A stretch of DNA of 64,000 nucleotides from Psychroflexus lacisalsi (GTDB lineage Bacteria; Bacteroidota; Bacteroidia; Flavobacteriales; Flavobacteriaceae), in contig NZ_JAIQYZ010000001.1 in the NCBI RefSeq assembly GCF_020164495.1, forward strand, positions 868,001-932,000, written 5' to 3'. The position numbers and the translations under genes were made by a program. The notes under the pieces are model-generated. The model was not told where the DNA came from and ran no database searches. It was given only the letters and a program-made list of their open reading frames with translations. Every line of letters begins with the position of its first letter. Within the stretch, counting starts at the first letter, position 1. Of this stretch, positions 16,079 to 42,499 are shown piece by piece.

Positions 16079-18055
16079 ATGAATTTTGAAGATCCTACTT
16101 TATCCAAAGAACAACATGTAGATTTATTCAAAAGTATTTTGAAGCCACGACTTATCGAAGAAAAAATGCTTGTGCTTTTACGACAAGGCAAAATCTCGAA
16201 GTGGTTTTCAGGAATTGGTCAAGAAGCGATAGCTGTAGGAGTAACTAAATCTTTAAAATCTGAAGAATACATTCTACCAATGCATAGAAATCTTGGAGTG
16301 TTCACTGAAAGAAAGATTCCTTTGCAACGCCTGTTTTCTCAATGGCAAGGAAAGTTAAACGGATTCACTAAAGGTAGAGATCGCAGCTTTCATTTTGGAA
16401 CACAGGAGTACAAAATCATTGGAATGATTTCTCATCTGGGCCCACAACTAGGAGTCGCAGATGGTATTGGTCTGGCGCATAAATTGAAAAATGAAAAATC
16501 TGTAACCGCAGTATTTACGGGTGAAGGTGGAACAAGTGAAGGTGATTTTCATGAAGCACTCAATGTCGCTTCAGTGTGGGATCTTCCGGTATTGTTTTGT
16601 GTGGAAAATAATGGGTATGGACTTTCCACGCCAACCAGTGAACAGTTTAAGTGTGAACATATCGCCGATAAAGCCTTAGGCTATGGGATGGAGTCGCACA
16701 TTATTGATGGCAATAACATCGTAGAAGTTTATACTAAAGTCAATGAGATTGCAAAAAGTGTAAGACAAAACCCAAGACCTGTATTGCTTGAATTCAAAAC
16801 CTTCAGAAGAAGAGGACACGAGGAAGCTAGCGGCACTAAATATGTGCCCGCCGAGCTCATGGAACATTGGGAAAAGTTAGATCCTGTTAATAATTATGAG
16901 TTGTTTATTTTGGAATCTGGCATTTTAAATCGTGATGAGATTGATTCAATTAAAACTGAAATAAAATCAGAAATAGATGAACACCTTAAAATAGCAAATA
17001 AGGAGCTTGAAGTTGAAGCTGATCAAACCAAAGAATTACAGGATGTTTTTCAAGGGTATGAGTTCAAACCTCAAATGCCCTCTTCAAAAAAAACAGAGCT
17101 ACGCTTCATCGACGCTATTTCTGATGGTTTGAGACAAAGCATGGAAAGACATGATGATCTAGTCATTATGGGACAGGATGTGGCTGAGTATGGTGGAGTC
17201 TTTAAAATTACAGAAGGGTTTGTAGAGAGATTTGGCAAAGATAGAGTGAGAAATACACCAATATGTGAGTCGGCTATCGTCACAACAGCTATGGGGCTTT
17301 CTATTAAAGGAATGAAGTCCGTCGTAGAAATGCAGTTTAGCGATTTTGTAAGTTCTGGATTCAATCCTATTGTAAATTATTTGGCCAAAGTTCATTACAG
17401 ATGGGCGCAAAATGCAGATGTAGTGATTCGAATGCCTTGCGGTGCAGGAGTAGGAGCAGGACCTTTTCACAGCCAGACCAATGAAGCTTGGTTCACCAAA
17501 ACTCCTGGCTTGAAAGTCGTCTATCCTTCAACTCCTCAGGAAGCTAAAGGCTTATTGATAGCATCTATTGAAGATCCAAACCCAGTCTTATTTTTTGAAC
17601 ATAAAGCATTATACCGAAGCATAAGGGGGGAGGTTTCCGTTGATTACTTTACAATTGAACTAGGGAAAGCCAATTTGATACGTGAAGGAAATGATCTTAC
17701 GATCATCACTTATGGTGCTGCAGTTCATTGGGCTACTGAACTACTTAAGAAATATCCTGAAATTTCAGCAGATCTTATTGATCTGAGGACATTGTCACCA
17801 CTGGATGAAGAGGCTATTTTTAAATCTGTCAAGAAAACAGGAAAAGTTATTATCCTTCAGGAAGACTCTATATTTGGTGGGATTGCGTCGGATATTTCAG
17901 CTTTGATTTCAGAAAATTGCTTTGAATATTTAGATGCACCTATAAAACGTGTGGCAAGTTTACCAACTCCAATTCCTTTTTCCAAAAATCTTGAAGATCA
18001 ATATCTAGGTAAAGAAAAATTCGAAAGTGCATTACTTACTTTAAATAATTATTAA
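16079..18055 (+). CDS. Fused E1 alpha/beta of branched-chain 2-oxoacid dehydrogenase
   Basis: Thiamine-diphosphate E1 that decarboxylates branched-chain 2-oxoacids and loads the acyl group on the lipoyl domain of E2. The 658-residue chain fuses both subunits: alpha at about 1-330, with the ThDP/Mg block GEGGTSEGDFHEALNVA and VENNGYGLST, and beta at about 340-658, starting KKTELRFIDAISDGL, with AEYGGVFKITEGF and PCGAGVGAGPFHSQ. E2 and E3 genes are not in the window. The product could supply branched acyl-CoA primers for iso-fatty acids, which Flavobacteria use widely. A TACATTTG -7 box (16048-16055) precedes it without a clear -33 element. Confidence 0.92.
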   Translation: MNFEDPTLSKEQHVDLFKSILKPRLIEEKMLVLLRQGKISKWFSGIGQEAIAVGVTKSLKSEEYILPMHRNLGVFTERKIPLQRLFSQWQGKLNGFTKGRDRSFHFGTQEYKIIGMISHLGPQLGVADGIGLAHKLKNEKSVTAVFTGEGGTSEGDFHEALNVASVWDLPVLFCVENNGYGLSTPTSEQFKCEHIADKALGYGMESHIIDGNNIVEVYTKVNEIAKSVRQNPRPVLLEFKTFRRRGHEEASGTKYVPAELMEHWEKLDPVNNYELFILESGILNRDEIDSIKTEIKSEIDEHLKIANKELEVEADQTKELQDVFQGYEFKPQMPSSKKTELRFIDAISDGLRQSMERHDDLVIMGQDVAEYGGVFKITEGFVERFGKDRVRNTPICESAIVTTAMGLSIKGMKSVVEMQFSDFVSSGFNPIVNYLAKVHYRWAQNADVVIRMPCGAGVGAGPFHSQTNEAWFTKTPGLKVVYPSTPQEAKGLLIASIEDPNPVLFFEHKALYRSIRGEVSVDYFTIELGKANLIREGNDLTIITYGAAVHWATELLKKYPEISADLIDLRTLSPLDEEAIFKSVKKTGKVIILQEDSIFGGIASDISALISENCFEYLDAPIKRVASLPTPIPFSKNLEDQYLGKEKFESALLTLNNY

Positions 18056-18115
18056 AAAAATCTTAAAGCCAAAGTTTCGCCGTACCTTAGATACTGAATT
18101 ATAAAATTCAAAATT

Positions 18116-18277
18116 ATGATACGATGGATAATCACATTTCTTATTATTGCTTTAATAGCAGCTGTTTTAGGATTTGGCGGAATCGCTGAAGGTGCTGCAG
18201 ATATTGCAAGAATAATTTTTTACATTTTTATTATCTTATTTGTTATTTCTTTAATTGGAAAGCTATTCAGACGATAA
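18116..18277 (+). CDS. DUF1328-family mini membrane protein
   Basis: A 53-residue ORF starting at ATG 18116 and reading [20 protein letters not shown], then [20 protein letters not shown] and ending KLFRR. It has two membrane helices separated by the [12 protein letters not shown] loop that defines the DUF1328/YtjA family. Homologues are stress-related membrane proteins of unknown mechanism. It stands between the E1 gene and a clear terminator at 18289-18326, so it is an independent short transcript or the last gene of the E1 unit. Confidence 0.88.
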
Positions 18278-18288
18278 AAAAAATAATT

Positions 18289-18326
18289 AAATCCGTAGTT
18301 TTGTTAAATCAAAAACTATGGATTTT
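18289..18326 (+). terminator. Rho-independent terminator after DUF1328 gene
   Basis: AAATCCGTAGTTTTG (18289-18303) pairs with CAAAAACTATGGATTT (18310-18325) with one mismatch and one bulge, and the 3' arm runs into further T's. It ends 22 bases before the lipocalin gene. Confidence 0.75.
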
Positions 18327-18347
18327 TAATAATCTTAAATACTACTT

Positions 18348-18821
18348 ATGAAATACACACTTACATTGATTGTTGCTTTTCTACTGATTTCCTGTGGAAC
18401 TTCATATCAAGCAAATCAAGTCGAGAAAGAATTTATAGGCGACTGGATTTTGGAATCAGTTACCTATCCAGATTCTTCTGGTTTGTTTGATGTCGAACTT
18501 TTTAATGTTGCAGATGCTTCTTGTTTTGACAATTCAACCTGGAAATTTATTCCAAATAATAGTACAGGAAGTTTCATCCTGGATGGAAATGATTGTACTA
18601 AAACCGAGCAGCAATTTACATGGTATATTGATAAAACTACAGCTAAGAACATTAATCCTGAAATACTCCTAAAAGTTACTACTGGACAAAAAGCTAGAAA
18701 AGTCGATACAGGTACGCGGATAAAAATTAAATCTTTGTTAGCGGATCAAATGATTTGGGAACAAAACGTTATGTTTAACGGTAAGCAAATAAAAATACAA
18801 ATGACATTTTCAAAATTTTAG
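18348..18821 (+). CDS. Lipocalin-like lipoprotein
   Basis: A 157-residue lipoprotein with signal ending LISC (Cys16). The mature part opens with FIGDWILESVTYPDSSG, the GxW lipocalin-type start, and continues as alternating strands ending IKIQMTFSKF. This matches the lipocalin-like (DUF4923-type) small lipoproteins common in Flavobacteria. Two further cysteines (in DASCFDNSTW and GNDCTK) could form a disulfide. The ligand is unknown. It is separated by 2 bases from the OmpA gene and is certainly in the same transcript. Confidence 0.82.
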   Translation: MKYTLTLIVAFLLISCGTSYQANQVEKEFIGDWILESVTYPDSSGLFDVELFNVADASCFDNSTWKFIPNNSTGSFILDGNDCTKTEQQFTWYIDKTTAKNINPEILLKVTTGQKARKVDTGTRIKIKSLLADQMIWEQNVMFNGKQIKIQMTFSKF

Positions 18822-18823
18822 AC

Positions 18824-19519
18824 ATGAAAAACTTTCAAAGTAATTTTTTAATAATTTTAGTGGCTTTCGCTTTCTTGTTTAGTTCTTGTGAAGCTACCAA
18901 GAACACTAACAAAACTCAACGTGGAGGTGCTATAGGCGCTGCAAGTGGTGCTGTAATCGGTGGTGTAATTGGAAATAATACTGGTGATGGTGACAACTCT
19001 GTACTTGGAGCAATTATTGGCGGTGTAGTTGGTGGTGCAGCCGGTGCATACATTGGGAACCGAATGGACAAACAAGCTAAAGAAATAGAGGAAGAGATTC
19101 CTGGAGCAGAAGTAACAAGAGTTGGTGAAGGTATCAATGTGACTTTTGATGAAAATTCTGGAGTTTATTTTGCAACCAACAAATCCAATATTGAAGGAAA
19201 ATCTGAAATTTCATTACTGAAACTTATCAATATTTTCCAGAAGTACCCTAAAACTAATATTATTGTAGAAGGTCATACTGATTCTTCAGGTAGTGATACT
19301 TACAACATGAACCTTTCCAAAGAACGTGCTCAGTCGGTATCTTACTATTTGACCAGTAATGGAATTGACAGTTCAAGAATTCAAACCAATTGGTTTGGTG
19401 AAGATCAACCAAAATATGATAATTCTACAGCAGAGGGTCGTTCCAAAAATAGAAGGGTAGAATTGGCTATTGTTGCTAATGAAGAATTGAAGGAAGAAGC
19501 TAAACAAAAGGCTGAATAA
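18824..19519 (+). CDS. OmpA-family lipoprotein with glycine zipper
   Basis: A 231-residue outer-membrane lipoprotein. The signal ends LFSSC (Cys22). Residues about 34-80 are a glycine-zipper segment (GGAIGAASGAVIGGVIG and GAIIGGVVGGAAGAYIG) able to insert in a membrane. The C-terminal OmpA domain at about 110-220 carries VEGHTDSSGSDTYNMNLS, KERAQSVSYYL and SKNRRVELAI, which bind peptidoglycan. It likely tethers the outer membrane to the cell wall. It ends the lipocalin-OmpA operon, which has its own terminator. Confidence 0.94.
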   Translation: MKNFQSNFLIILVAFAFLFSSCEATKNTNKTQRGGAIGAASGAVIGGVIGNNTGDGDNSVLGAIIGGVVGGAAGAYIGNRMDKQAKEIEEEIPGAEVTRVGEGINVTFDENSGVYFATNKSNIEGKSEISLLKLINIFQKYPKTNIIVEGHTDSSGSDTYNMNLSKERAQSVSYYLTSNGIDSSRIQTNWFGEDQPKYDNSTAEGRSKNRRVELAIVANEELKEEAKQKAE

Positions 19520-19587: not shown

Positions 19588-20703
19588 ATGAAAATTTATG
19601 ATGTAATTATTATCGGAGGAGGACTCGCAGGTTTGACGTCAGCTATAGATTTGTCCTCAAGTGGTTTTGAAGTCCTACTCATAGAGAAAGACGAATATCC
19701 CAAGCATAAAGTATGTGGAGAATATGTTTCCAATGAAGTGTTACCCTACTTTAATCGTCTCGGAATTGATATCAATCAAACTAAGGCAGATCAAATCAAC
19801 CGTTTAACATTGAGTAATCGAAATGGTGAAACTGTAAATGTCGGGTTACCTTTGGGTGGTTTTGGAATGTCAAGATACGCTTTAGACCATCTGCTTTATG
19901 AGAAAGCAAAATCTAATGGTGTCCAATTTAAGTTTGAGACCGTAACGGGTGTTGAATTTGAAAATGAGCAATTTTGTATCACAACAAACCAACAAAATTA
20001 TTATTCTGAATTAGCTATTGGTAGTTTTGGAAAACGCTCCACCTTAGATAAAAAACTAGGCAGATATTTTATTAATAAAAAGACTCCTTGGATTGGAATT
20101 AAAGCGCATTACCAGAGTGATGATTTCCCTAATGGCGAAGTACAACTCCATAATTTTGAAGGTGGGTATTGTGGTCTTTCAAAAACAGAAACCGGAGCGG
20201 TCAACTTTTGCTATTTAGCACATTATGACAGCTTCAAAAAAGAAGGTTCTGTTGAAAATTTCAATCAACATATATTAACCAAAAATCCCAAGCTGAAATC
20301 ATTTTTGAAGAATTCTGAAATGCTTTTCGATAAGCATTTAGCGATTTCACAAGTGTCCTTTCAGAATAAAAATGCTGTAGAGAATCACATGTTGATGGCT
20401 GGAGATTCTGCAGGGCTTATTCATCCACTTTGCGGTAACGGTATGGCTATGGCGATACATTCAGCTAAATTACTTTCAGAAGAAATAAAAAAATACAAAA
20501 CTTTTAAAAGCAGAAATCAGTTGGAAGAAAACTATACGGCTATCTGGGAACAGACTTTTCGTAAAAGGCTTATTTTTGGATCGGCATTTCAAAAGATACT
20601 TTTACAACCCAAACTAACTAATTTAGGGATGTCATTAGTTTCAAAATCTCCATTTTTGATAAAAAAAATGATTCAGCAAACCCACGGTAAACCCATTTCA
20701 TGA
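19588..20703 (+). CDS. FAD-dependent oxidoreductase of the type III PKS operon
   Basis: A 371-residue flavoprotein of the geranylgeranyl-reductase / aromatic-hydroxylase-like group. FAD is held by YDVIIIGGGLAGLTSAIDL at the N-terminus and by LMAGDSAGLIHPLCGNGMA near residue 270. The stretch YPKHKVCGEYVSNEV after the first FAD fingerprint is typical of geranylgeranyl-reductase-like and halogenase-like enzymes. It is first in the polyketide operon, and its TGA overlaps the methyltransferase ATG (ATGA). In this setting ring hydroxylation or oxidation of the polyketide, or reduction of an alkyl chain, is inferred rather than shown. Confidence 0.85.
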   Translation: MKIYDVIIIGGGLAGLTSAIDLSSSGFEVLLIEKDEYPKHKVCGEYVSNEVLPYFNRLGIDINQTKADQINRLTLSNRNGETVNVGLPLGGFGMSRYALDHLLYEKAKSNGVQFKFETVTGVEFENEQFCITTNQQNYYSELAIGSFGKRSTLDKKLGRYFINKKTPWIGIKAHYQSDDFPNGEVQLHNFEGGYCGLSKTETGAVNFCYLAHYDSFKKEGSVENFNQHILTKNPKLKSFLKNSEMLFDKHLAISQVSFQNKNAVENHMLMAGDSAGLIHPLCGNGMAMAIHSAKLLSEEIKKYKTFKSRNQLEENYTAIWEQTFRKRLIFGSAFQKILLQPKLTNLGMSLVSKSPFLIKKMIQQTHGKPIS

Positions 20704-21410
20704 AATATATTTCAACCAAAATAAGAAGTCGGGAAGATGAAATTATGGATGAGTTTGACTTTAAAGGAGAAGAGCTCAAAAAGGTACTCCGTACTATTGA
20801 TAAAATCAACACCAAGCTTGGCGGGCATCGGGTGACTAGAAAAGGTATTCAGGAATTATTAGAGAACAACTCCAAGAAACATCTAGTCATTGCAGACTTA
20901 GGATGTGGAAGCGGTGATGCTTTGAGACAAATCTCGAAATGGGCAAACAAGCAAGGCCTCAATGTTCAACTTATAGGTATAGATGCCAATCCTTATACGA
21001 TCGAGATTGCTAGAGAATGGTCAAGAGATTATAAGAATATTTCATACCGAGTTATTGATGTTTTTAGTGAAGATTTTGAGGACTTTGAAGCTGATATCAT
21101 TACTTGTTGTCTCACACTTCACCATTTTGATGATCAATCCATAGCAAAACTTTTACCGATTCTTTCAGAAAAAGCAAGTTTGGGATTGGTGATCAATGAT
21201 CTGCACAGACATAAATTAGCATACCAATTATTCAAGCTATATTGCTTAGTGTTTGTAAATTCAGATATTGCAAGAAAAGATGGACTCACTTCAATTCTGA
21301 GAGGATTTAAGTCAGTAGATTTAGATAATTACGCAGAACAATTAAATTTAAAGCACCACATTTCATGGTATTGGGCATTTCGATACCAGTGGATCATATA
21401 CAGCTCATGA
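20700..21410 (+). CDS. SAM-dependent methyltransferase of the type III PKS operon
   Basis: A class I methyltransferase of 236 residues. Motif I ADLGCGSGDAL lies at 65-75, the acidic SAM ribose contact is in IGIDANPYTIEIA, and LTLHHFDDQ matches the post-III block of UbiE-like enzymes. It overlaps both neighbours by 4 bases (ATGA at each end), so its level is coupled to the oxidoreductase and the PKS. The probable substrate is the aromatic or pyrone product of the PKS, by analogy with methyltransferases next to other type III PKS genes. C- or O-methylation cannot be told apart. Confidence 0.87.
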   Translation: MKYISTKIRSREDEIMDEFDFKGEELKKVLRTIDKINTKLGGHRVTRKGIQELLENNSKKHLVIADLGCGSGDALRQISKWANKQGLNVQLIGIDANPYTIEIAREWSRDYKNISYRVIDVFSEDFEDFEADIITCCLTLHHFDDQSIAKLLPILSEKASLGLVINDLHRHKLAYQLFKLYCLVFVNSDIARKDGLTSILRGFKSVDLDNYAEQLNLKHHISWYWAFRYQWIIYSS

Positions 21411-22459
21411 GTGTAAAAATAGAAACAGTAGCAACACAAACACCCCAATATTATAAGGAAACCAAAGATATTATTCCTTTTGTTGAGATGTGGCTTGCCG
21501 ATGAAGATGAAAGGTTCCGAAGGAAAGTTGTAAAAATTTACGAAGGCGCTCAAGTGGATAAGCGGTATTCCATTATGGATCCTGAAGAAGTATTTGAAGC
21601 TACCTCTTTTGAAGATAAAAACCGAATCTATACTCGGGAAGCTAAAATCCTGGGTAAAAAAGTTTTGGAAAAAGCATTACGACAGGCTGACTGGTCTCCG
21701 CAGAGTTTAGATTATATCATCACTGTGAGTTGTACGGGAATTATGATTCCTTCCTTAGATGCTTTTCTTATCAACGATTTGGATTTGCGACAAGATATCG
21801 TGAGGCTTCCAGTAACCGAAATGGGTTGCGCAGCAGGAATTTCTGGGATGATTTACGCCAAGCAATTTTTGCAAGCAAATCCTGACAAAAGAGCGGCGAT
21901 AGTCTCTTTTGAAGCACCAACTGCCACCTTTCAGCTTAGCGATAAGTCGATGGCCAATATGGTGAGTTCTGCCATTTTTGGAGACGGTTCTGCCTGTGTG
22001 TTGATGAGTTCTGAAGAAACTTCCACTGGTCCAAAAATCCTTGGAGAATCCATGTATCATTTTTACAACGACACTCACATGATGGGGTTTGACTTGACCA
22101 ATTCTGGCTTGAAAATGGTTCTTGATATTGATGTTCCGGAGAAAATAAGTGAGCATTTTCCTCAAATTATCCATCCATTTTTGGAAGCAAATCAAACTAA
22201 TATAGAAGATATAGATCATCTAATTTTTCATCCTGGAGGCAAGAAAATCATCAATACAGTGGAAGCTCTTTTTGGTGCAATGGGTAAAAATATAGACGAC
22301 ACTAAAGAAGTCTTAAGACTATTTGGGAATATGAGCAGCGCTACAGTGCTCTATGTATTGGAACGCATGCTCCAAAAAGACATCAAAAAAGGAGAAAAAG
22401 GCTTGATGCTAAGTTTTGGACCTGGCTTTTCAGCACAACGGATTCTTTTGGAGTGGTAA
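21407..22459 (+). CDS. Type III polyketide synthase (chalcone/stilbene synthase family)
   Basis: A homodimeric condensing enzyme that extends an acyl starter with malonyl-CoA and cyclises it, usually without an acyl carrier protein. The start at 21407 gives 350 residues and an ATGA overlap; an upstream in-frame start would read into the methyltransferase gene. The whole catalytic triad is present: Cys141 in EMGCAAGISG, His275 in IFHPGGKK and Asn308 in LFGNMSSATV. The active-site-closing loop LSFGPGFSA lies near 335-343. Product type (resorcinol, phloroglucinol, pyrone) is not predictable from motifs. The surrounding ketosynthase, dehydratase, enoyl reductase and ACP suggest a fatty or otherwise carrier-bound starter. 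Confidence 0.95.
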   Translation: MSVKIETVATQTPQYYKETKDIIPFVEMWLADEDERFRRKVVKIYEGAQVDKRYSIMDPEEVFEATSFEDKNRIYTREAKILGKKVLEKALRQADWSPQSLDYIITVSCTGIMIPSLDAFLINDLDLRQDIVRLPVTEMGCAAGISGMIYAKQFLQANPDKRAAIVSFEAPTATFQLSDKSMANMVSSAIFGDGSACVLMSSEETSTGPKILGESMYHFYNDTHMMGFDLTNSGLKMVLDIDVPEKISEHFPQIIHPFLEANQTNIEDIDHLIFHPGGKKIINTVEALFGAMGKNIDDTKEVLRLFGNMSSATVLYVLERMLQKDIKKGEKGLMLSFGPGFSAQRILLEW

Positions 22460-22511
22460 TTTTTTCTGAATTTGATTCAAGCAAGACTTAATTTTTAAAG
22501 ATATTCAGCTT

Positions 22512-23294
22512 ATGACTAATCAATCGCTTAAACATTTCGCCCTGGTTTTGGGAGGAAGTCAGGGTTTGGGATATGCTTCAGCATTGAAGTTGGCTCAAAA
22601 TGGCTGGAATTTACTCATCATTCATAGAGATCGAAGAAGTGATTTACCTGACATCGAAGCTAGATTTGATGTTTTAAGGCAATGTGGTGTTGATCTAAAA
22701 TCATTTAATCTGGACGCGACAAATTCAGAAAAAAGGAAAAATTTTATAAAACAACTTCCAGAATTACTAGGTGGATCTGGAAAAATAAAACTGCTTCTTC
22801 ATAGCATCGCTAAGGGAAACCTGAAAGCCATGACCGGAGATTCTCCACTTAATCAAACAGACTTGCAAATTACAGCCAACGCGATGGCTTACAGTTTTTA
22901 TGATTGGGCTAAAGATCTTTTAGAAGCGGGTTATTTCGCGAAAAACTCGAAACTTTTAGCCTTTACAAGTGAGGGAAATCAACGGGTTTGGAAACATTAT
23001 GCTGCTGTTTCTGTGGCCAAAACAAGCCTTGAAACACTCATGAAATATATGGCAACGGAATTTGCTGAGTATGATATTACTGCGAACTGTATTCAGGCCG
23101 GAATGGTAGAAACCCAATCTTTCCAAATGATTCCAGGTCATGAACAATTGAAAGAAGCTGCTGTAAAGCGAAATCCCTTTCAGCGCTTAACGCAACCTGA
23201 AGATATTGCTAATGTGGTCTATTTATTAAGTCTAGAAGAATCCAATTGGATCAATGGCTCTGTCATCAAAGCTGATGGTGGAGAAAGTTTATAA
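22512..23294 (+). CDS. FabL/FabI-like enoyl-ACP reductase (SDR)
   Basis: A 260-residue SDR. The nucleotide-binding loop is GGSQGLG (14-20), and the catalytic pair is Tyr163 and Lys170 in HYAAVSVAK. This Y-x6-K spacing marks FabI and FabL enoyl-ACP reductases; ordinary SDR ketoreductases have Y-x3-K. LLHSIAKG (95-102) corresponds to the FabI LVHSIA block and the C-terminus VIKADGGESL resembles FabL. It would reduce trans-2-enoyl groups on the operon's ACP. No ketoreductase with classical spacing is in the operon, so that step would need housekeeping FabG. The gene starts 52 bases after the PKS stop. Confidence 0.78.
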   Translation: MTNQSLKHFALVLGGSQGLGYASALKLAQNGWNLLIIHRDRRSDLPDIEARFDVLRQCGVDLKSFNLDATNSEKRKNFIKQLPELLGGSGKIKLLLHSIAKGNLKAMTGDSPLNQTDLQITANAMAYSFYDWAKDLLEAGYFAKNSKLLAFTSEGNQRVWKHYAAVSVAKTSLETLMKYMATEFAEYDITANCIQAGMVETQSFQMIPGHEQLKEAAVKRNPFQRLTQPEDIANVVYLLSLEESNWINGSVIKADGGESL

Positions 23295-23305
23295 GATATC
23301 AACGC

Positions 23306-23746
23306 ATGAAATCATCCAAAATCATTTCAAAATTACCATATCAGGAGCCTTTTCTTTATGTAAAAACCATTGATGAGGTGTCGGAGAACTTTATAAAAGG
23401 AAGTTATACTTTCAAAGCTTCTTCCTGGTTTTATAAAGGGCATTTCAAAAATAACCCGATTACGCCAGGTGTTATTCTCACTGAATGTGCCGCTCAAATT
23501 GGTTTGGCAAGTTTTGGGTTTTACCTTTTATCTCAAAAAGAAAACATTAATCTTGAGCAAGTAAAATTGGCAATGACGTCAACCAATGTTGAGTTTTTAA
23601 AACCCGTTTTACCTGGAGACAAAGTCCTAGTAGAAGCTGAAAAAGTATATTTTAGATTTAATAAATTAAAAGTATCCGTAAAAATGTTTGATTTATCTGG
23701 AGATTTAGTCCTTCGCGGTGAGCTTGCTGGAGTGATATTACCTTAA
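23306..23746 (+). CDS. FabZ-like 3-hydroxyacyl-ACP dehydratase
   Basis: A 146-residue hot-dog protein. The active-site signature GHFKNNPITPGVILTE gives catalytic His46 and Glu60, matching His and Glu of FabZ; PYQEPFLYV at the N-terminus is also FabZ-like. Length is normal for a single hot-dog domain. It would dehydrate 3-hydroxyacyl-ACP before the enoyl reductase encoded just upstream. It lies 11 bases after that gene and 2 bases before the ketosynthase gene. Housekeeping fabZ is presumably elsewhere, so this is a dedicated paralogue. Confidence 0.87.
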   Translation: MKSSKIISKLPYQEPFLYVKTIDEVSENFIKGSYTFKASSWFYKGHFKNNPITPGVILTECAAQIGLASFGFYLLSQKENINLEQVKLAMTSTNVEFLKPVLPGDKVLVEAEKVYFRFNKLKVSVKMFDLSGDLVLRGELAGVILP

Positions 23747-23748
23747 TT

Positions 23749-25023
23749 ATGAAAAAAACAAGAGTTGTAATCACTGGAATGGGAATCGTTGCTCCCAATG
23801 CTACAGGTCTTTCTCAGTTTGAGCAAGCTATAAAAGTAGGTAAAAGCGGAATTGAATTTCATCAGCAACTAAAAGATTTAAAATTTAGTTGTCAGATTGG
23901 AGGTATCCCTGAAATATCTCAGGTAATTTTGGATAACAACTTCACTGCTTTGGAACAGCGAGGACTTTTAGCTACGGGATTGATTTATGGAGGTATTGCC
24001 GGACAAGAGGCCTGGAAAGATGCTCAACTGGAAATCAATGACGAACTCGATACAGATACTGGAATCATTTTCGGAACTGGTGTTCTTGGTGTTGAAAAAT
24101 TAAGAGAAGCGTTTAATAAAATAGATGATAAGCAAGTCAGGAGATTGGGAAGTACCAGCGTTTTGCAAACTATGGCCAGTGGGATTAGCGCCTTTTTAGG
24201 TGGAAAACTAGGCTGTGGCAATCAGGTAACATCCAACTCATCAGCTTGCACCACAGGCACAGAAGCTCTGTTAATGGGATGTGAACGTATTCAATACGGA
24301 AAAGCTAAGCGTATGCTGGTAGGAAGTTGTAGTGATTCCGGACCTTATGTCTGGGGCGGTTTTGATGCCTTACGAATTTTACCTTATCAATATAACGATA
24401 CTCCAGAATTGGCGTCTCAGCCCATGTCGGCAACAGCTTCAGGCTTTGTGCCGTCGAGTGGGGCAGGAGCGCTAATGTTGGAAAGTTTGGAATCTGCTTT
24501 AGAAAGGGGCGCAAACATTTATGCCGAAGTTTTAGGTGGACATATCAACTCTGGTGGTCAGCGAGAGCATGGAAGTATGACGGCTCCCAACTCCACGGCC
24601 GTTAAGAGCTGCATCTCGCAAGCAGTAGTGGATGCAGGAGTAAATTCAGAAGAAATTGACCTTATTAACGGACACCTGACAGCGACAGCCATGGATGCTA
24701 CCGAAATTGAGAATTGGTCTCAGGCTTTAAGGTTAAAAGGAAAAGATTTTCCTTATATCAATTCACTTAAAAGCCATGTTGGTCATGCTTTGGCGGCGGC
24801 CGGTAGTCTTGAATTGGTGAGTTCTGTTTTGGAATTAAAAGGGGGATTTATCTTTCCTAACCTCAATTGCGAGATGGTCCATCCTGATATTCTTAAACTC
24901 ATCGACGAAGATAAAATTCCCAGAAAACTTATTGAAAAAAAGATCAATCTTTTAGCGAAGGCTAGTTTTGGATTTGGGGACGTCAACGCCTGTGTAATTT
25001 TAAAATCGTATACCAATGAATAA
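23749..25023 (+). CDS. Beta-ketoacyl-ACP synthase (FabF-like)
   Basis: A 424-residue condensing enzyme. The thiolase-fold residues are Cys167 in SNSSACTTG, His309 in INGHLTATAMDA, and Lys341 and His346 in SLKSHVGHALAAAG, so the C-H-H set is complete. GHLTATA departs from the usual THGT(S/G)T of housekeeping FabF, marking a divergent, specialised member. It would elongate an acyl-ACP with malonyl units. The active-site cysteine argues against a chain-length-factor role. The last 8 bases overlap the following membrane-protein gene. Confidence 0.9.
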   Translation: MKKTRVVITGMGIVAPNATGLSQFEQAIKVGKSGIEFHQQLKDLKFSCQIGGIPEISQVILDNNFTALEQRGLLATGLIYGGIAGQEAWKDAQLEINDELDTDTGIIFGTGVLGVEKLREAFNKIDDKQVRRLGSTSVLQTMASGISAFLGGKLGCGNQVTSNSSACTTGTEALLMGCERIQYGKAKRMLVGSCSDSGPYVWGGFDALRILPYQYNDTPELASQPMSATASGFVPSSGAGALMLESLESALERGANIYAEVLGGHINSGGQREHGSMTAPNSTAVKSCISQAVVDAGVNSEEIDLINGHLTATAMDATEIENWSQALRLKGKDFPYINSLKSHVGHALAAAGSLELVSSVLELKGGFIFPNLNCEMVHPDILKLIDEDKIPRKLIEKKINLLAKASFGFGDVNACVILKSYTNE

Positions 25024-25246
25024 ACAACAACTCAAAAAGCGCTATTGGATTTTTGGTGGACTAGGAACTGGTTTGCTTGGATTCGGCCTTTCTGCGCTAG
25101 TGGAAAGTGGGTTTTTGAAGCACAGCGAAGCACCGGCCTGGCAGTGGATACTGGCCGGAACTTTATCTTTAATTTTGATCATGACAGGCATTAATTTCTT
25201 GTTTGAAAGTTTTAGATGCAAACAAGAAGTGAATAATAATTTTTAA
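25016..25246 (+). CDS. Small two-helix membrane protein in the PKS operon
   Basis: A 76-residue protein with two predicted membrane helices, about residues 11-31 (WIFGGLGTGLLGFGLSALV) and 43-64 (WILAGTLSLILIMTGINFLF), joined by a short polar loop. The N-terminus is basic and the C-terminus is polar. It overlaps the ketosynthase gene by 8 bases, so it is coupled to it and very probably real. I do not recognise the family. It might anchor the pathway enzymes or the lipid product at the membrane; that is a guess from position. Confidence 0.75.
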   Translation: MNKQQLKKRYWIFGGLGTGLLGFGLSALVESGFLKHSEAPAWQWILAGTLSLILIMTGINFLFESFRCKQEVNNNF

Positions 25247-25343
25247 GAAGTTCATTTTCTTTTCTTCTGAATTTGATAGTGGAAAGCTTGATGTTTTGAG
25301 ACTTGATTATAAAAACTAATTAGTAAATTGCTCTCAAAAATAT

Positions 25344-25598
25344 ATGACTTCTGAAGCTATTCAAGAACGACTAAAAACCATAGTTAAGCCCTACATCAAC
25401 AATCAAGAGAACTTCGAAAAGTTATCAAAAGAGTCAGATTTCATTAACGATCTTGAAATTAATTCGGCTAATTTGGTAGATATTGTACTAGATGTTGAGG
25501 ATGAATTTGACATTAGGATTGAAAATGATGATATGGAAAAAATGACTAATGTAGAAGCAACAGTGGAGGTGATCCAAAAGAAACTTTCAGCAAAGTGA
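25344..25598 (+). CDS. Acyl carrier protein of the PKS operon
   Basis: An 84-residue acidic carrier protein. The phosphopantetheine site is Ser41 in DLEINSANLVDIVLDVEDEF, where the usual D-S-L is replaced by N-S-A. The following helix, VDIVLDVEDEFDIRI, is typical of ACPs. A gap of 97 bases before it is the largest in the operon and may hold an internal signal, although I see no clear promoter. Its stop codon overlaps the GTG start of the phosphopantetheinyl transferase gene. It is a dedicated ACP; the housekeeping acpP must be elsewhere. Confidence 0.88.
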   Translation: MTSEAIQERLKTIVKPYINNQENFEKLSKESDFINDLEINSANLVDIVLDVEDEFDIRIENDDMEKMTNVEATVEVIQKKLSAK

Positions 25599-26116
25599 TC
25601 GGAAACGACATTGTCGATTTAGTCAAAGCAAAGCAGGAGTCGAATATTTTCCGGCCTCGTTATCTTGAAAAAGTTTGTTCACCTGAAGAAATTGATCTTG
25701 TACTTTCGAGCTCAAATGCAATCAACACCTTCTGGAGAATCTGGACGATGAAGGAATCTGCCTATAAAGCCTTTCAAAGAGATCTAAGCTTCAAAACTTT
25801 TTTTAATCCATTTGCTTTTACTTGTCAGTTTAAGGACTCAGATTTTGGGGAGCTTAATTATAACGGACATCAACTTTCAACAAAAACAATTCAAACTAAG
25901 GAATTTATCTATTCTGAAGTAGTTAATTTTAGAACAACACAGAGATTTTTTGGCTCTTCATCTGATTTTTTAAAAAAACTGAAAACAGAGTTGAATCTAA
26001 AATCGCATCCAGAACTGACAAAAACAAAAGATGGTCTTCCAGTTTTGGACTTAGCGCATAAAATGTCACCTATTTCCAAAACTCATCATGGAAACTTCCA
26101 AGCCTTTCAGTATTAA
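25595..26116 (+). CDS. 4'-phosphopantetheinyl transferase
   Basis: A 173-residue enzyme that would load the phosphopantetheine arm on the ACP encoded just upstream. The Mg/CoA motif MIGNDIVDL at 1-9 and WTMKESAYKAF around residues 50-60 (W-x-x-K-E-S/A) define the superfamily. The start is GTG at 25595, overlapping the ACP stop as GTGA; no ATG gives the conserved N-terminus. Length is between AcpS (about 120) and Sfp (about 220). It closes the nine-gene operon, and its coupling to the ACP makes the pair a self-contained activation unit. Confidence 0.87.
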   Translation: MIGNDIVDLVKAKQESNIFRPRYLEKVCSPEEIDLVLSSSNAINTFWRIWTMKESAYKAFQRDLSFKTFFNPFAFTCQFKDSDFGELNYNGHQLSTKTIQTKEFIYSEVVNFRTTQRFFGSSSDFLKKLKTELNLKSHPELTKTKDGLPVLDLAHKMSPISKTHHGNFQAFQY

Positions 26117-39170: not shown

Positions 39171-39590
39171 ATGGATAAACAAAAGATATTAGAGCAGTGC
39201 AATGCTTATACCAAAAATACGTTGATGGAAACCCTAGATATTTCCTACGTAGATGTAGGTGAAGATTTCCTTGTTGCAAGGATGCCAGTGACCCCAAAAG
39301 TACATCAGCCGGATGGAGTTCTACACGGAGGAGCCATGGTAGCTCTCGCAGAAAGTGTTGGAAGCGCCGCTTGTTTTGTTTTTTTGGACACTAAAAAATT
39401 CATGATTCGTGGTTTGGAAATTTCTGCAAACCACGTGAGGAGTTTAAGTTCAGGTAATGTGTTTGCCACTGCAAAGTTTATTCATAAGGGGAGAACCACT
39501 CAGGTTTGGGATATCAAGTTGACAGATGTTGAAAACAGACTTATTTCAGCAGTAAAGTTGACAACCATTGCTCTACCTAAAGCAAGCTAA
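39171..39590 (+). CDS. PaaI/MenI-like hot-dog thioesterase
   Basis: A 139-residue thioesterase. The active-site block HQPDGVLHGGAMVALAES places the catalytic glutamate at Glu61, the layout of E. coli MenI (YdiI). Followed directly by menF and menD, it most likely hydrolyses 1,4-dihydroxy-2-naphthoyl-CoA in menaquinone synthesis; a phenylacetyl-CoA-type role is the alternative. Its TAA overlaps the menF ATG by one base. A TAATTTTG -7 box lies at 39144-39151. Confidence 0.85.
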   Translation: MDKQKILEQCNAYTKNTLMETLDISYVDVGEDFLVARMPVTPKVHQPDGVLHGGAMVALAESVGSAACFVFLDTKKFMIRGLEISANHVRSLSSGNVFATAKFIHKGRTTQVWDIKLTDVENRLISAVKLTTIALPKAS

Positions 39591-40690
39591 TGCAAAAACT
39601 ACGGGAACATATTGAGGAGGCCTGGACTTCACAATTGCCTTTTGTGGCTTATCATCTCCCAAACGCAAGTGACGTCCGCTGTTTTTTTCCAAAGGATTCA
39701 GAGCTACGTCACCTTCAGCGTTACGATGAGTCTGGATTTATATTCTCGGCTTTTGAGCCTTTATCCCAACCCATCGTCTTTCCTGAAGCTATTTCTGAGG
39801 TTTTAAAGTTTGAGCTCATCGATTATGAAGTGGAATCGCAAAGCAAATTCAGAATAAAAGAAGATCCTGGCGAAAAAGATGAATACATAAAACTGGTAGC
39901 CAATGCGATAGATCAAATTAAGACTGATGAGGTAAGAAAGATTGTGGTTTCTAGAAAGATCTCTGCAGACTATGATTTGCAAAATCCGGTTGAATTATTG
40001 CTGAAATTGATACAGTTCTATCCCGAAGCTTTTACCTATGTTTGGTTTCATCCTGAAGTAGGATTGTGGGCCGGCGCATCTCCGGAATTTCTTGCTAAAA
40101 CTCACAGAACACAGTTTAAAACTATGGCGCTGGCTGGAACTAAGCGAGTAGGGGAAGACAGAGATTGGACCGAAAAGGAGCTGGATGAGCAACAAATCGT
40201 GACTGATGAAATTGTAAACGGGCTAAAAAAACATACAAAAACCCTTGAGGTTTCTGAGCGAAATACAGATAAAGCAGGAGAGCTTCTGCATTTAAGAACG
40301 GATATTACGGCGACTCTGGAATCATCGAATCTGGGGGATGTTTTAAAACAGTTACATCCTACTCCGGCAGTTTGCGGTTTGCCTAAAGAAAAGGCTTATC
40401 AGTATTTGAAGGCTAATGAAAATTATGAAAGGCAGTTTTATGCTGGATATTTTGGAGAGCTCAACATGCCGTATCATAACCAAAGATCCAGTAGAACCAG
40501 GAATCAAGAAAATCAAGCTTATAAATCTATAGTTAGGGCTTCCAATTTGTACGTTAACTTGCGCTGTATGAGTTATGCAGACGAAAAAATTAATATATAT
40601 GTGGGCGGTGGCATCACAAAAGACAGCAATCCCGAAGATGAATGGACAGAAACAGTCAATAAATCTAGGACGATGTTAAAAGTGCTATAA
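39590..40690 (+). CDS. menF: Isochorismate synthase
   Basis: Converts chorismate to isochorismate, the first step of menaquinone synthesis. The 366 residues end in the chorismate-binding domain, with KIVVSRKI, LAGTKRVGEDRDWTEKELDEQ, LHPTPAVCGLPKEKA and YAGYFGELN, the standard family blocks with the Mg-binding glutamates. The N-terminal ~100 residues are shorter than in E. coli MenF (431), as is usual in Bacteroidetes. It is coupled to the upstream thioesterase gene and 51 bases ahead of menD. Salicylate or siderophore use is less likely in this context. Confidence 0.92.
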   Translation: MQKLREHIEEAWTSQLPFVAYHLPNASDVRCFFPKDSELRHLQRYDESGFIFSAFEPLSQPIVFPEAISEVLKFELIDYEVESQSKFRIKEDPGEKDEYIKLVANAIDQIKTDEVRKIVVSRKISADYDLQNPVELLLKLIQFYPEAFTYVWFHPEVGLWAGASPEFLAKTHRTQFKTMALAGTKRVGEDRDWTEKELDEQQIVTDEIVNGLKKHTKTLEVSERNTDKAGELLHLRTDITATLESSNLGDVLKQLHPTPAVCGLPKEKAYQYLKANENYERQFYAGYFGELNMPYHNQRSSRTRNQENQAYKSIVRASNLYVNLRCMSYADEKINIYVGGGITKDSNPEDEWTETVNKSRTMLKVL

Positions 40691-40741
40691 TAAATTGTAA
40701 GACTATAGCTATTTAGAAATCTCCCCTCTTATTTTAGCATT

Positions 40742-42499
40742 ATGAATCAGATCTATTCTAGCATTCCAACAGCTCAACTAATCGTCGAACTTTGTGTTTT
40801 GAATGGCATAGAGCATGTAGTAATCTCGCCAGGTTCCAGAAATGCACCTTTAACGATAACACTAGCAAATCATCCCAAAATAAATGCCTACAGTATTGTT
40901 GATGAACGTTGTGCTGGTTTTTTTGCACTTGGCATGACTCAGCGTTTCAATGCTCCTGTGGCTGTGGTTTGTACTTCTGGTTCAGCGCTATTGAATTATT
41001 ATCCAGCAGTATCAGAAGCATTCTACAGCAATTTACCCTTGGTAGTGATATCTGCAGACAGGCCTCCGCACTTAATAGATGTCGGAGATGGACAAACCAT
41101 AAGACAGCCAAATGTTTTTAAAAATCATATTTTGTACTCAGCTAACCTAAAATCTGATTTTCATAATTCTGGAGATCAATCTATTTTAGATTTCAATACT
41201 AAAGAAACTCACAAAGCACTTCAAACTGCTATATGGAATCAGGGACCAGTCCACATAAACGCTCCTTTTGATGAGCCACTTTACAATAAAACAGATCAGT
41301 TGGATTTTACAATCCCCAAATTGGCGTCTTTGAAACCAAATAGTGCTAAAATCGATGTTTCAGATTTTATTAATTCTTGGAATACTTCGTCTAAAAAATT
41401 GGTTTTAGTAGGGGTGAATTTGGATGAAAAAATTGATGAAAGTTTCCTCGAACTGTTTTCGGAAGACCCTTCTGTTATTGTCATGACTGAAATTACTTCT
41501 AATATATCAGACAGAAATTTCTTTACAAATATAGACTCAATTTTAGCTCCTATCGAGTCAGAAGCTAATACTGAAAAATTATTTGAGGCGCTACAGCCAG
41601 ACATGCTTATTACCTTTGGAGGATTAATTGTATCCAAAAAGATTAAAAAGTTTCTAAGACAATTTCAGCCTAAAAAGCATTTCCATATCGATCCAAGAGA
41701 AGCAAATGATACCTTTTTCTGCTTGACTCAGCATTTTGAAACTTCGGTCAATTCTTTTTTTGAAAAATCTAATTCATCACTAACCAAAATCGAGTCTTCC
41801 TATTTTGAAAGCTGGAATGCCATTCGATTGAAAACTCTGTTGTATAGAAAACATTATAAAAATGAAATTGGATTTACTGATTTTGCTTTTTACTATAGTT
41901 TATTTGAGCATTTACCTCAAGATGAAACAGTTCATTTTGCCAACAGTTCCAGTATTCGTTATGCAAATTTGTTTGATTCCAGACGAGAAATCAAGGCTTT
42001 TGCCAACAGGGGAACTAGTGGCATAGATGGAAGCACCTCTACAGCCATTGGCTATGCAGTCGCCAGCCAAGAGCCAACGACATTGGTAACTGGCGATCTT
42101 AGTTTTTTCTATGATTCCAATGCACTTTGGAATAACTATATTCCTAAAAATTTTAAAATCATTCTTCTTAATAATTCTGGCGGTGGTATTTTTAGAATAC
42201 TTCCTGGAAATAAAGATGAAGACTATTTTGCCAATTATTTTGAAACTACGCATAACCTCAACGCCAAACAACTGTGTGAGATGTATCAATTACAGTATAC
42301 AGTAGCGCATGATTTAGTGGATGTTGACAGAGAATTACCTTTATTTTTTAAAAGAAATAGATCTCCACAATTGATCGAAATCTTCACACCAAGATTGGAA
42401 AATGATAAAGTGCTTCTTGGGTATTTTGACTATCTGAGAAAGCATATTGACTTCCAGTCGGTTTTAAATTTTAAAACAACAGAGTCCACTTCAAACTAA
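40742..42499 (+). CDS. menD: SEPHCHC synthase (MenD)
   Basis: Thiamine-diphosphate enzyme that joins isochorismate with the succinic semialdehyde unit of 2-oxoglutarate in menaquinone synthesis. All 585 residues are in family range. The Pyr domain begins with VISPGSRNAPLTI, the Mg/ThDP block is VTGDLSFFYDSNALWNN with LLNNSGGGIFRILPG, and the C-terminus is as expected. menB, menC and menE are not in the window, so the pathway is completed elsewhere. The following S1-domain gene is 51 bases downstream. Confidence 0.95.
   Translation: MNQIYSSIPTAQLIVELCVLNGIEHVVISPGSRNAPLTITLANHPKINAYSIVDERCAGFFALGMTQRFNAPVAVVCTSGSALLNYYPAVSEAFYSNLPLVVISADRPPHLIDVGDGQTIRQPNVFKNHILYSANLKSDFHNSGDQSILDFNTKETHKALQTAIWNQGPVHINAPFDEPLYNKTDQLDFTIPKLASLKPNSAKIDVSDFINSWNTSSKKLVLVGVNLDEKIDESFLELFSEDPSVIVMTEITSNISDRNFFTNIDSILAPIESEANTEKLFEALQPDMLITFGGLIVSKKIKKFLRQFQPKKHFHIDPREANDTFFCLTQHFETSVNSFFEKSNSSLTKIESSYFESWNAIRLKTLLYRKHYKNEIGFTDFAFYYSLFEHLPQDETVHFANSSSIRYANLFDSRREIKAFANRGTSGIDGSTSTAIGYAVASQEPTTLVTGDLSFFYDSNALWNNYIPKNFKIILLNNSGGGIFRILPGNKDEDYFANYFETTHNLNAKQLCEMYQLQYTVAHDLVDVDRELPLFFKRNRSPQLIEIFTPRLENDKVLLGYFDYLRKHIDFQSVLNFKTTESTSN

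Follow-up and report, generated by a model that had tools for sequence, protein, structure and literature searches.

A type III polyketide synthase operon with a putative ACP-based elongation line in Psychroflexus lacisalsi and other Flavobacteriaceae

Organization of the operon and its products

The window, a 64,000-nucleotide stretch of the Psychroflexus lacisalsi genome, contains nine open reading frames (ORFs) on one strand (+) between positions 19588 and 26116. These encode, in order, an FAD oxidoreductase, a methyltransferase (MT), a type III polyketide synthase (PKS), an enoyl reductase (ER), a dehydratase (DH), a ketosynthase (KS), a small membrane protein, an acyl carrier protein (ACP) and a phosphopantetheinyl transferase (PPTase). 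Checking of the ORF coordinates in the window bore out this nine-gene run, which had been proposed in an earlier, sequence-only reading of the same DNA. That reading had also called the first three genes translationally fused; the overlaps are real, but the genes are separate ORFs and are correctly described as overlapping. The FAD oxidoreductase and MT genes have a common ATGA at 20700-20703. As the start codon of the PKS (ATG, 21407) shares bases with the MT stop codon (21408-21410), the PKS is best taken as 21407-22459; a second in-frame ATG is present at 21365. The KS and membrane protein genes overlap by 8 bases, the ACP and PPTase genes have a common GTGA at 25595-25598, and the other four junctions are gaps of 2, 11, 52 (PKS-ER) and 97 bp (membrane protein-ACP). 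HMM searches of the window placed every domain on its own ORF, with no multidomain type I FAS or PKS. Scans of the window gave 30 sigma-70 promoter-like sites, where 36.1 were expected (sd 5.5), and 13 terminator-like sites, where 8.2 were expected (sd 3.0).

The first gene (19588..20703, +) was assigned by HMM and an AlphaFold model to an FAD-dependent oxidoreductase of the monooxygenase/halogenase/geranylgeranyl-reductase fold, with matches to FAD_binding_3 (1.8e-14) and GG-red-SF (2.3e-32; 113 bits, cut-off 159). The solved folds nearest to the model (pLDDT 88.5) were PltA (Z 36.0, rmsd 2.9, 359 aligned) and other flavin halogenases, followed by squalene epoxidase, 3HB6H and PHBH; because hydroxylases and epoxidases of this fold reach Z 30-33, fold alone decides nothing. 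Flavin-dependent halogenases carry the motif WxWxIP. Although the fold search favours halogenases, this identity was rejected for the FAD enzyme, in which the motif is replaced (GWVWMIP of CmlS aligns to GGYCGLS). The second gene (20700..21410, +) encodes a class I SAM methyltransferase, UbiE/Coq5-like (Methyltransf_25, 5.8e-13), whose model (pLDDT 93.2) has BpumL, CouO, Coq5 and NovO as its top structural matches and which may act as either a C- or an O-methyltransferase.

The type III PKS (21407..22459, +; Chal_sti_synt_C, 7.4e-21) has the triad Cys140-His274-Asn307, counting the Ser encoded at 21410 as residue 1. At least 97% of the 86 aligned orthologue rows, window included, have the same residues as the window at these positions, and a Cys-His-Asn triad is found in 86/86 rows of the clade and in 31/31 other Bacteroidota type III PKSs. 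Residue 227 is Phe in the clade and Trp in 31/31 of the other PKSs. The best sequence matches among solved structures include THNS, CylI, Steely1 and Pks11, the last of these, named an alpha-pyrone synthase, being the top PDB match. Arg or Lys occupies positions 35, 38, 39 and 42 in 85, 86, 86 and 85 of the 86 orthologue rows, compared with 8, 15, 19 and 9 of the 31 other type III PKSs. Positions 35-42 presumably line the CoA entrance by chalcone-synthase numbering, and the patch, considered as proof of ACP docking, was demoted to a weak hint since CoA would bind there equally well. A DarB-type beta-ketosynthase (flexirubin/dialkylresorcinol) was not found in the operon by HMM, the StlD/DarB model giving 16.4 bits against a cut-off of 450.

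The remaining genes resemble those of fatty acid elongation. The ER (22512..23294, +) is an SDR with Tyr163-x6-Lys170 (75 orthologue rows), and Tyr-x6-Lys, rather than Tyr-x3-Lys, marks FabL-type enoyl-ACP reductases. It matched the FabL model NF005975 at 7.4e-41, and 3oic/3oid was its sole PDB sequence match at 1e-18 or better; the FabL-type match and the motif rule out a ketoreductase. Because its NCBIfam score is 140 bits, below the curated cut-off of 328, it is not filed as a FabL, and we infer that it works like one. It is followed by a FabZ/FabA-like 3-hydroxyacyl-ACP dehydratase (23306..23746, +; FabA-like, 1.7e-14) with His46 and Glu60 (82 rows), and by a beta-ketoacyl-ACP synthase (23749..25023, +; FabF model, 2.2e-76, 257 bits, cut-off 494) with Cys167-His309-His346 and Lys341 (81 rows), which is divergent from the FabF of its own genome. 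The small membrane protein (25016..25246, +) has a hydrophobic stretch at about residues 41-64 and gave no match in Pfam and NCBIfam profile searches. The ACP (25344..25598, +; PP-binding, 4.1e-5) has its phosphopantetheine site at Ser41 (80 rows), and is one of two PF00550 matches in the P. lacisalsi genome (E <= 0.01), the other adjoining a housekeeping FabF. The last gene (25595..26116, +) starts with GTG and encodes an accessory 4'-phosphopantetheinyl transferase (ACPS, 7.5e-14). In each of these alignments the residues named are the same as in the window in at least 97% of rows, the window included, and two of the 85 locus rows duplicate genomes already in the set. From family knowledge we take the residues listed for the PKS, KS, SDR, DH and ACP to be the catalytic positions.

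Conservation in the Flavobacteriaceae

A sample of 199 family genomes, nearly one per genus, was searched for orthologues of the PKS and of the KS, the latter at E <= 1e-90. The PKS was present in 63/199 genomes, about a third, and the KS in 62/199. All 62 KS-positive genomes were PKS-positive, so that the KS occurred in 62/63 PKS-positive and 0/136 PKS-negative genomes (62 both, 1 PKS-only, 0 KS-only). The Fisher p of 2.5e-51 assumes independent genomes and overstates the link, since the genomes are related. In two genomes (G144 and G190) the operon is split and DH-KS-ACP are grouped at a second locus; because the halves co-occur though split, the link between PKS and KS is more than one of neighbourhood. 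The sampled PKS orthologues form one clade, on one side of a branch with SH-aLRT 99.

Across the 62 loci besides that of the window, the FAD, MT and PKS genes were present at all 62, DH, KS and ACP at 58 each, ER at 54, PPTase at 18 and the membrane protein, which occurs in Psychroflexus loci and a few others, at 3; short or divergent copies of the last two may fall below the thresholds used. The KS, DH, ER and ACP genes are thus conserved with the PKS, contrary to the lack of conservation that would have told against the sequence-only reading, and the same gene order, which the sequence-only reading had proposed to seek in other Flavobacteriaceae, was found repeatedly. The order FAD-MT-PKS-(ER)-DH-KS-ACP recurs over the displayed loci, Taibaiella genomes among them, with the MT and FAD genes co-directional with the PKS. 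Because the PPTase and membrane protein are so often missing, the conserved core is this set of six to seven genes, not nine. The proposal of a nine-gene unit with its own carrier and activating enzyme therefore stands for the carrier, KS and DH, but does not extend to the PPTase or the membrane protein. The ER is an optional member, missing at 10/65 loci with at least 8 state changes on a quick tree; one genome (G138) keeps PKS and ER, with no KS found, and another (G031) keeps the ER alone at the operon site.

The unit had also been described as lacking a ketoreductase, an acyltransferase and a thioesterase, and none was seen inside the 57 loci at which PKS and ACP occur together. These loci hold 12 intervening genes outside the nine operon families, of which the 8 examined by Pfam gave unrelated families or no match. 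One FabG above cut-off is encoded elsewhere in the P. lacisalsi genome. Judged by gene content, the elongation line is only half private, because the ketoreductase and malonyl-transfer steps would have to be supplied by the host.

Upstream, a lipoprotein-like ORF and a glycine-zipper/OmpA protein (18348..19519, +) are conserved neighbours. They were rejected as pathway members and are probably a landmark of the neighbourhood, since the OmpA gene is present in 119/199 family genomes and in G053 (locus L187), which is without the PKS, the OmpA-to-RecQ stretch has no operon gene. Five further PKS-less OmpA loci comprised four with no operon gene (L188, L189, L191 and L192) and one with the ER alone (L190). 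A YceI-cluster gene was likewise considered as a partner of the operon and set aside: it lies within the displayed span at 22/63 loci, but at just 4 is it the immediate upstream neighbour in the same orientation.

Beyond the family sample, a scan of genome contigs, a method that reaches close relatives only, gave 20 loci, all with names taken as Bacteroidota. In plasmid records, no PKS among the matches listed (25 and 60 out of 215 records) exceeded about 34% identity.

Related loci and known systems

In the Steely hybrids of Dictyostelium, an FAS-like ACP passes an acyl chain to a type III PKS within one giant fused protein, whereas the P. lacisalsi operon encodes separate proteins. The statement in the sequence-only reading that type III PKSs usually use CoA starters and need no ACP has published exceptions, with hand-over from ArsA to ArsB/C, from hexanoyl-ACP to Gcs and SCO7671, and to CylI in the portions of the literature available to us (PMC6274091, PMC8086630). 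ArsABCD of Azotobacter vinelandii likewise encodes an FAS with its type III PKSs and passes the chain directly from ACP to PKS, but the ACP there is a domain of the synthase ArsA, while in P. lacisalsi the proteins are separate and MT and FAD genes are added (PMC6274091, in part). The cylindrocyclophane cluster (CylB/CylD/CylH/CylI) is described as having a free-standing ACP from which the chain is handed to the type III PKS, but elongation is by type I PKSs, and halogenation and dimerisation are present (PMC8086630, in part). In the present operon the ACP and elongation enzymes are encoded with the PKS, as seen at the 58 of 62 loci with ACP and KS. ACP-fed type III PKSs are thus already known (Ars, Cyl, Gcs), and it is the dissociated, operon-encoded line that seems to be new.

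The operon also has two features of the hierridin/Srs/PkQ type, a PKS with the catalytic triad and adjacent MT and FAD genes. Hierridin hidABC of picocyanobacteria and a planctomycetal trio similarly combine PKS, adjacent MT and oxidoreductase in one operon, using a long alkyl starter, but their gene order differs, and the available portions of these sources describe no KS, DH, ER, ACP or PPTase gene (PMC8086630, PMC10896814); the terms 'bacteroid', 'ketoacyl' and 'dehydratase' have zero occurrences in PMC10896814. SrsABC and pkqABC (Streptomyces, Mycobacterium smegmatis) pair a PKS with an MT and a hydroxylase/oxidoreductase and yield alkyl benzoquinones, but a dedicated acyl carrier is not described in the available text, where 'acyl carrier' occurs 0 times (PMC9927152).

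For comparison within the phylum, 31 other Bacteroidota type III PKS loci were picked by hand; the pool comprised the 154 genomes (187 less 33) that encode a different PF02797 protein. DH, KS and ACP were found at 0/31, a count that divergent ACPs could escape, whereas MT and FAD homologues were present at 19/31, with 8 of the 19 FAD matches weak (23-36 bits). MT and FAD genes beside the PKS are the layout of the hierridin, SrsABC and polyketide-quinone operons. Most likely, the present unit arose by a single addition of a type II elongation line to an alkylresorcinol/quinone operon, and this line would feed acyl-ACP to the PKS.

Proposed pathway and alternatives

It is fairly probable that the operon directs the biosynthesis of an aromatic (phenolic or quinone) lipid, the PKS, MT and FAD enzyme being joined to a type II line that feeds the PKS from the ACP. 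From the gene content, active-site residues, gene order, co-occurrence and single sampled clade we infer the reactions and product class as follows. An ancestral trio of type III PKS, MT and FAD oxidoreductase, such as produces alkylresorcinols and alkylquinones in other organisms, would have acquired a type II line for fatty-acid elongation made up of separate proteins. The operon ACP would be activated by the adjacent PPTase in P. lacisalsi, and at loci without a PPTase gene by one supplied by the host. The operon KS would extend the ACP-bound chain with host malonyl-ACP, followed by reduction by host FabG, dehydration by the operon DH and saturation by the operon ER, or by a host ER where the operon ER was lost. 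The finished acyl-ACP would dock on the type III PKS and transfer its chain to Cys140; the PKS would add malonyl units and close the ring, after which the MT would methylate and the FAD enzyme hydroxylate it. A resorcinol is the most likely ring product, though not a certain one, because Pks11, the top match in the PDB, is named an alpha-pyrone synthase.

It is possible, but rather unlikely, that the PKS is fed by ordinary acyl-CoA, like the alkylresorcinol synthases that use CoA starters, and that the ACP line serves to make another acyl group, later joined to the ring as in a flexirubin-like ester. Such feeding would agree with the 19/31 loci above, at which other type III PKSs of the phylum have MT and FAD neighbours but no elongation line, and planctomycetal PKSs expressed singly in Corynebacterium are reported to have yielded alkylresorcinols (PMC10896814, in part); against it, the 8/12 intervening genes examined in the stretch from PKS to ACP included no recognisable acyltransferase, and the ER sits between PKS and DH in the displayed loci with an intact ER. 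We consider a little less likely still an alkylpyrone decorated by the FAD enzyme and MT. The Pks11 match and the pyrones described as formed from hexanoyl-ACP by Gcs and SCO7671 point that way, but wherever the product of a PKS, MT and oxidoreductase trio is known in the sources available, it is a resorcinol or quinone, and the MT model lies close to ring C-methyltransferases and Coq5. That the genes are mere neighbours belonging to different pathways is highly improbable, since repeated loss of the ER and one genome with the ER only would fit such a reading but the co-occurrence (62 versus 1 and 0), which includes distant halves in some genomes, argues against it.

Under the preferred reading of an ACP-fed PKS, a more speculative and on balance doubtful extension is that the product is a second fatty-tailed respiratory or antioxidant quinone in Bacteroidota, with a tail made by the private ACP line and handed directly to the PKS. 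If true, the Steely and Ars systems, which are fused, would have a free-standing counterpart in this operon, and the private-ACP polyketide quinone would be an alternative to menaquinone of wide distribution. Open-access PubMed Central searches, in the text they covered, found neither a product nor any Bacteroidota type III PKS linked to KS/ACP genes. In the available portions of two Flavobacteriaceae surveys, such clusters make up 10.74% (PMC10734526) and 9% (PMC7440613) of clusters, with no product given. Should the PKS indeed draw on the ACP line, this common class of orphan clusters would gain a testable product class, the CoA-pool rule for type III PKSs would have a widespread exception made of separate proteins, and those separate proteins would be convenient material for studies of docking between ACPs and type III PKSs.

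Gene content and proposed pathway of the operon

The window sequence bears out the nine forward-strand ORFs of the operon (19588-26116) exactly as listed and placed in the sequence-only reading. HMM searches identified an FAD enzyme, a class I methyltransferase (MT), a type III PKS, a FabL-like reductase (ER), a FabZ-like dehydratase (DH), a FabF-like ketosynthase (KS), an ACP and a PPTase, and returned no match for the small protein. Catalytic positions of the PKS, KS, reductase, DH and ACP are conserved in at least 97% of aligned rows (n = 75 to 86), and the window PKS shares 82-96% identity with the named Psychroflexus loci.

The operon KS matches FabF/FabB structures. The genome encodes a separate FabF of its own, on another contig, that scores above the FabF cut-off. 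The two PP-binding matches in the genome (E <= 0.01) are the ACP beside that FabF and the operon ACP, and a FabG above cut-off is encoded elsewhere. Given this distinct KS, second ACP and separate FabG, the operon KS, DH, ER and ACP would build the chain together with host FabG and, we infer, host FabD. The modelled FAD enzyme has a monooxygenase/halogenase fold and the halogenase motif is absent from it, which makes hydroxylation or a different oxidation the more likely activity. For the MT model the plantazolicin methyltransferase is the first match; CouO and NovO, which C-methylate rings, are also among its matches, as are Coq5 and others, so the MT may methylate either C or O.

The premise that type III PKSs need no ACP has to be qualified by published exceptions: according to the available parts of two papers, SCO7671 and Gcs accept hexanoyl-ACP, ArsB and ArsC use chains from the ArsA synthase, and CylI is likewise ACP-fed (PMC6274091, PMC8086630). 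Searches of open-access PubMed Central turned up no type III PKS operon described as encoding a dissociated KS/DH/ER/ACP line. Surveys of Flavobacteriaceae, in the portions seen, count T3PKS clusters and do not name a product (PMC10734526, PMC7440613).

Co-occurrence and layout in relatives

The PKS search covered 199 genomes from the family, counting the window's own and amounting to approximately one per genus; it gave 64 matches, or 63 PKS-positive genomes once the G072 match was set aside as a paralogue (33% identity). The KS search of the same 199 gave 62 matches at E <= 1e-90, all within these 63 and missing only G138. The Fisher tests of this co-occurrence assume independent genomes, which these are not. 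The 55 ER matches at E <= 1e-60 comprised 54 of the 63 PKS-positive genomes and G031; among the nine missed, the G080 locus carries a more divergent ER and that of G103 an ER remnant (53 bits).

At 62 loci, the window's own left out, FAD, MT and PKS genes were each present throughout, DH, KS and ACP each at 58, ER at 54, the PPTase at 18 and the small membrane protein at three. The DH-KS-ACP genes are at second loci for L090 (L167, in G190) and L109 (L166, in G144); L096 (G066) reaches a contig end and DH-KS-ACP-PPTase continue on another contig (L183). L103 has KS and ACP, and no DH was recognised at this locus. Among 20 named loci, including L048 and L051, which end early at contig ends, FAD, MT, PKS and DH were each found at 20, ER and KS at 19, ACP at 18, PPTase at 13 and the membrane protein at 10. 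The PKS of L113 (G150) is split over two frames near residue 113, by gene damage or sequencing error.

Between PKS and ACP, 57 loci contained 12 genes outside the nine operon families. Pfam searches of eight of them classed seven, as DsbA-like, aspartyl protease, transposase, transglutaminase-like, DUF218/hemopexin, MepB-like and GIY-YIG proteins, and left one unmatched; none of these eight therefore provides the missing ketoreductase, acyltransferase or thioesterase. Outside the family, the layout occurs at the named Taibaiella loci, on a Saprospiraceae contig ending at DH, and in three genomes from two other families of the class, two of them without ER.

The observed coupling was right, and stronger than could be known from the window. 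KS is tied to PKS across relatives. The interpretation that the operon line builds an ACP-bound chain for the type III PKS is probably right in outline, with the hand-over, its decisive step, as a hypothesis.

Flanking genes

A conserved stretch precedes the operon (window 16079-19519), encoding an E1 dehydrogenase alpha/beta fusion, a lipoprotein-like ORF and an OmpA protein. At L187 of G053 this stretch leads on to RecQ with no operon genes, and the site looks empty. At L190 of G031 an enoyl reductase stands alone at the corresponding chromosomal place, as the only operon gene found. An MMPL-family transporter gene (Pfam on the L099 copy), possibly a lipid exporter, directly follows the PPTase at L073, L078, L099 and L111. 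A YceI-like gene lies near the operon at 22 of 63 displayed loci, a figure with no control count (e.g. L064, L073 and L098; Pfam on the L064 copy); in the 'S. ferox' operon a lipid/isoprenoid-binding protein gene precedes the PKS (PMC10896814). At many loci without a recognised PPTase, the gene 3' of ACP encodes a roughly 144-aa membrane protein that lacks a Pfam match (e.g. L072:7342-7776) and belongs to a cluster of 15 members. Farther along the window, two ORFs (39590-42499) are by eye candidates for menaquinone-pathway isochorismate synthase and MenD.

Origin of the operon

Of 395 genomes from the phylum, 187 encode type III PKS-family proteins and 33 a member of the window PKS orthologue group. 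At 31 hand-picked loci of other PKSs in the phylum, MT and FAD homologues lie beside the PKS at 19 (eight of these FAD matches being weak), and the profiles used found DH, KS or ACP at none. A PKS-MT-oxidoreductase trio is also found in hierridin, planctomycetal, SrsABC and polyketide-quinone operons, as described in the available parts of the sources (PMC10896814, PMC8086630, PMC9927152). A quick PKS tree was built from 33 clade rows (the window and 32 loci) together with 31 other PKSs and an outgroup. The clade forms one side of a branch (SH-aLRT 99) with a long stem of 2.48 changes per column, where the method warns of long branches meeting. PKS position 227 (window 22088-22090) is Phe in 86/86 clade rows and Trp in 31/31 other Bacteroidota PKSs, a difference that could matter for the shape of the cavity or for cyclisation. 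Presence of ER requires at least eight changes of state over 65 loci. The simplest reading is that the elongation line was recruited once to a PKS-MT-FAD trio, and that ER was then lost repeatedly.
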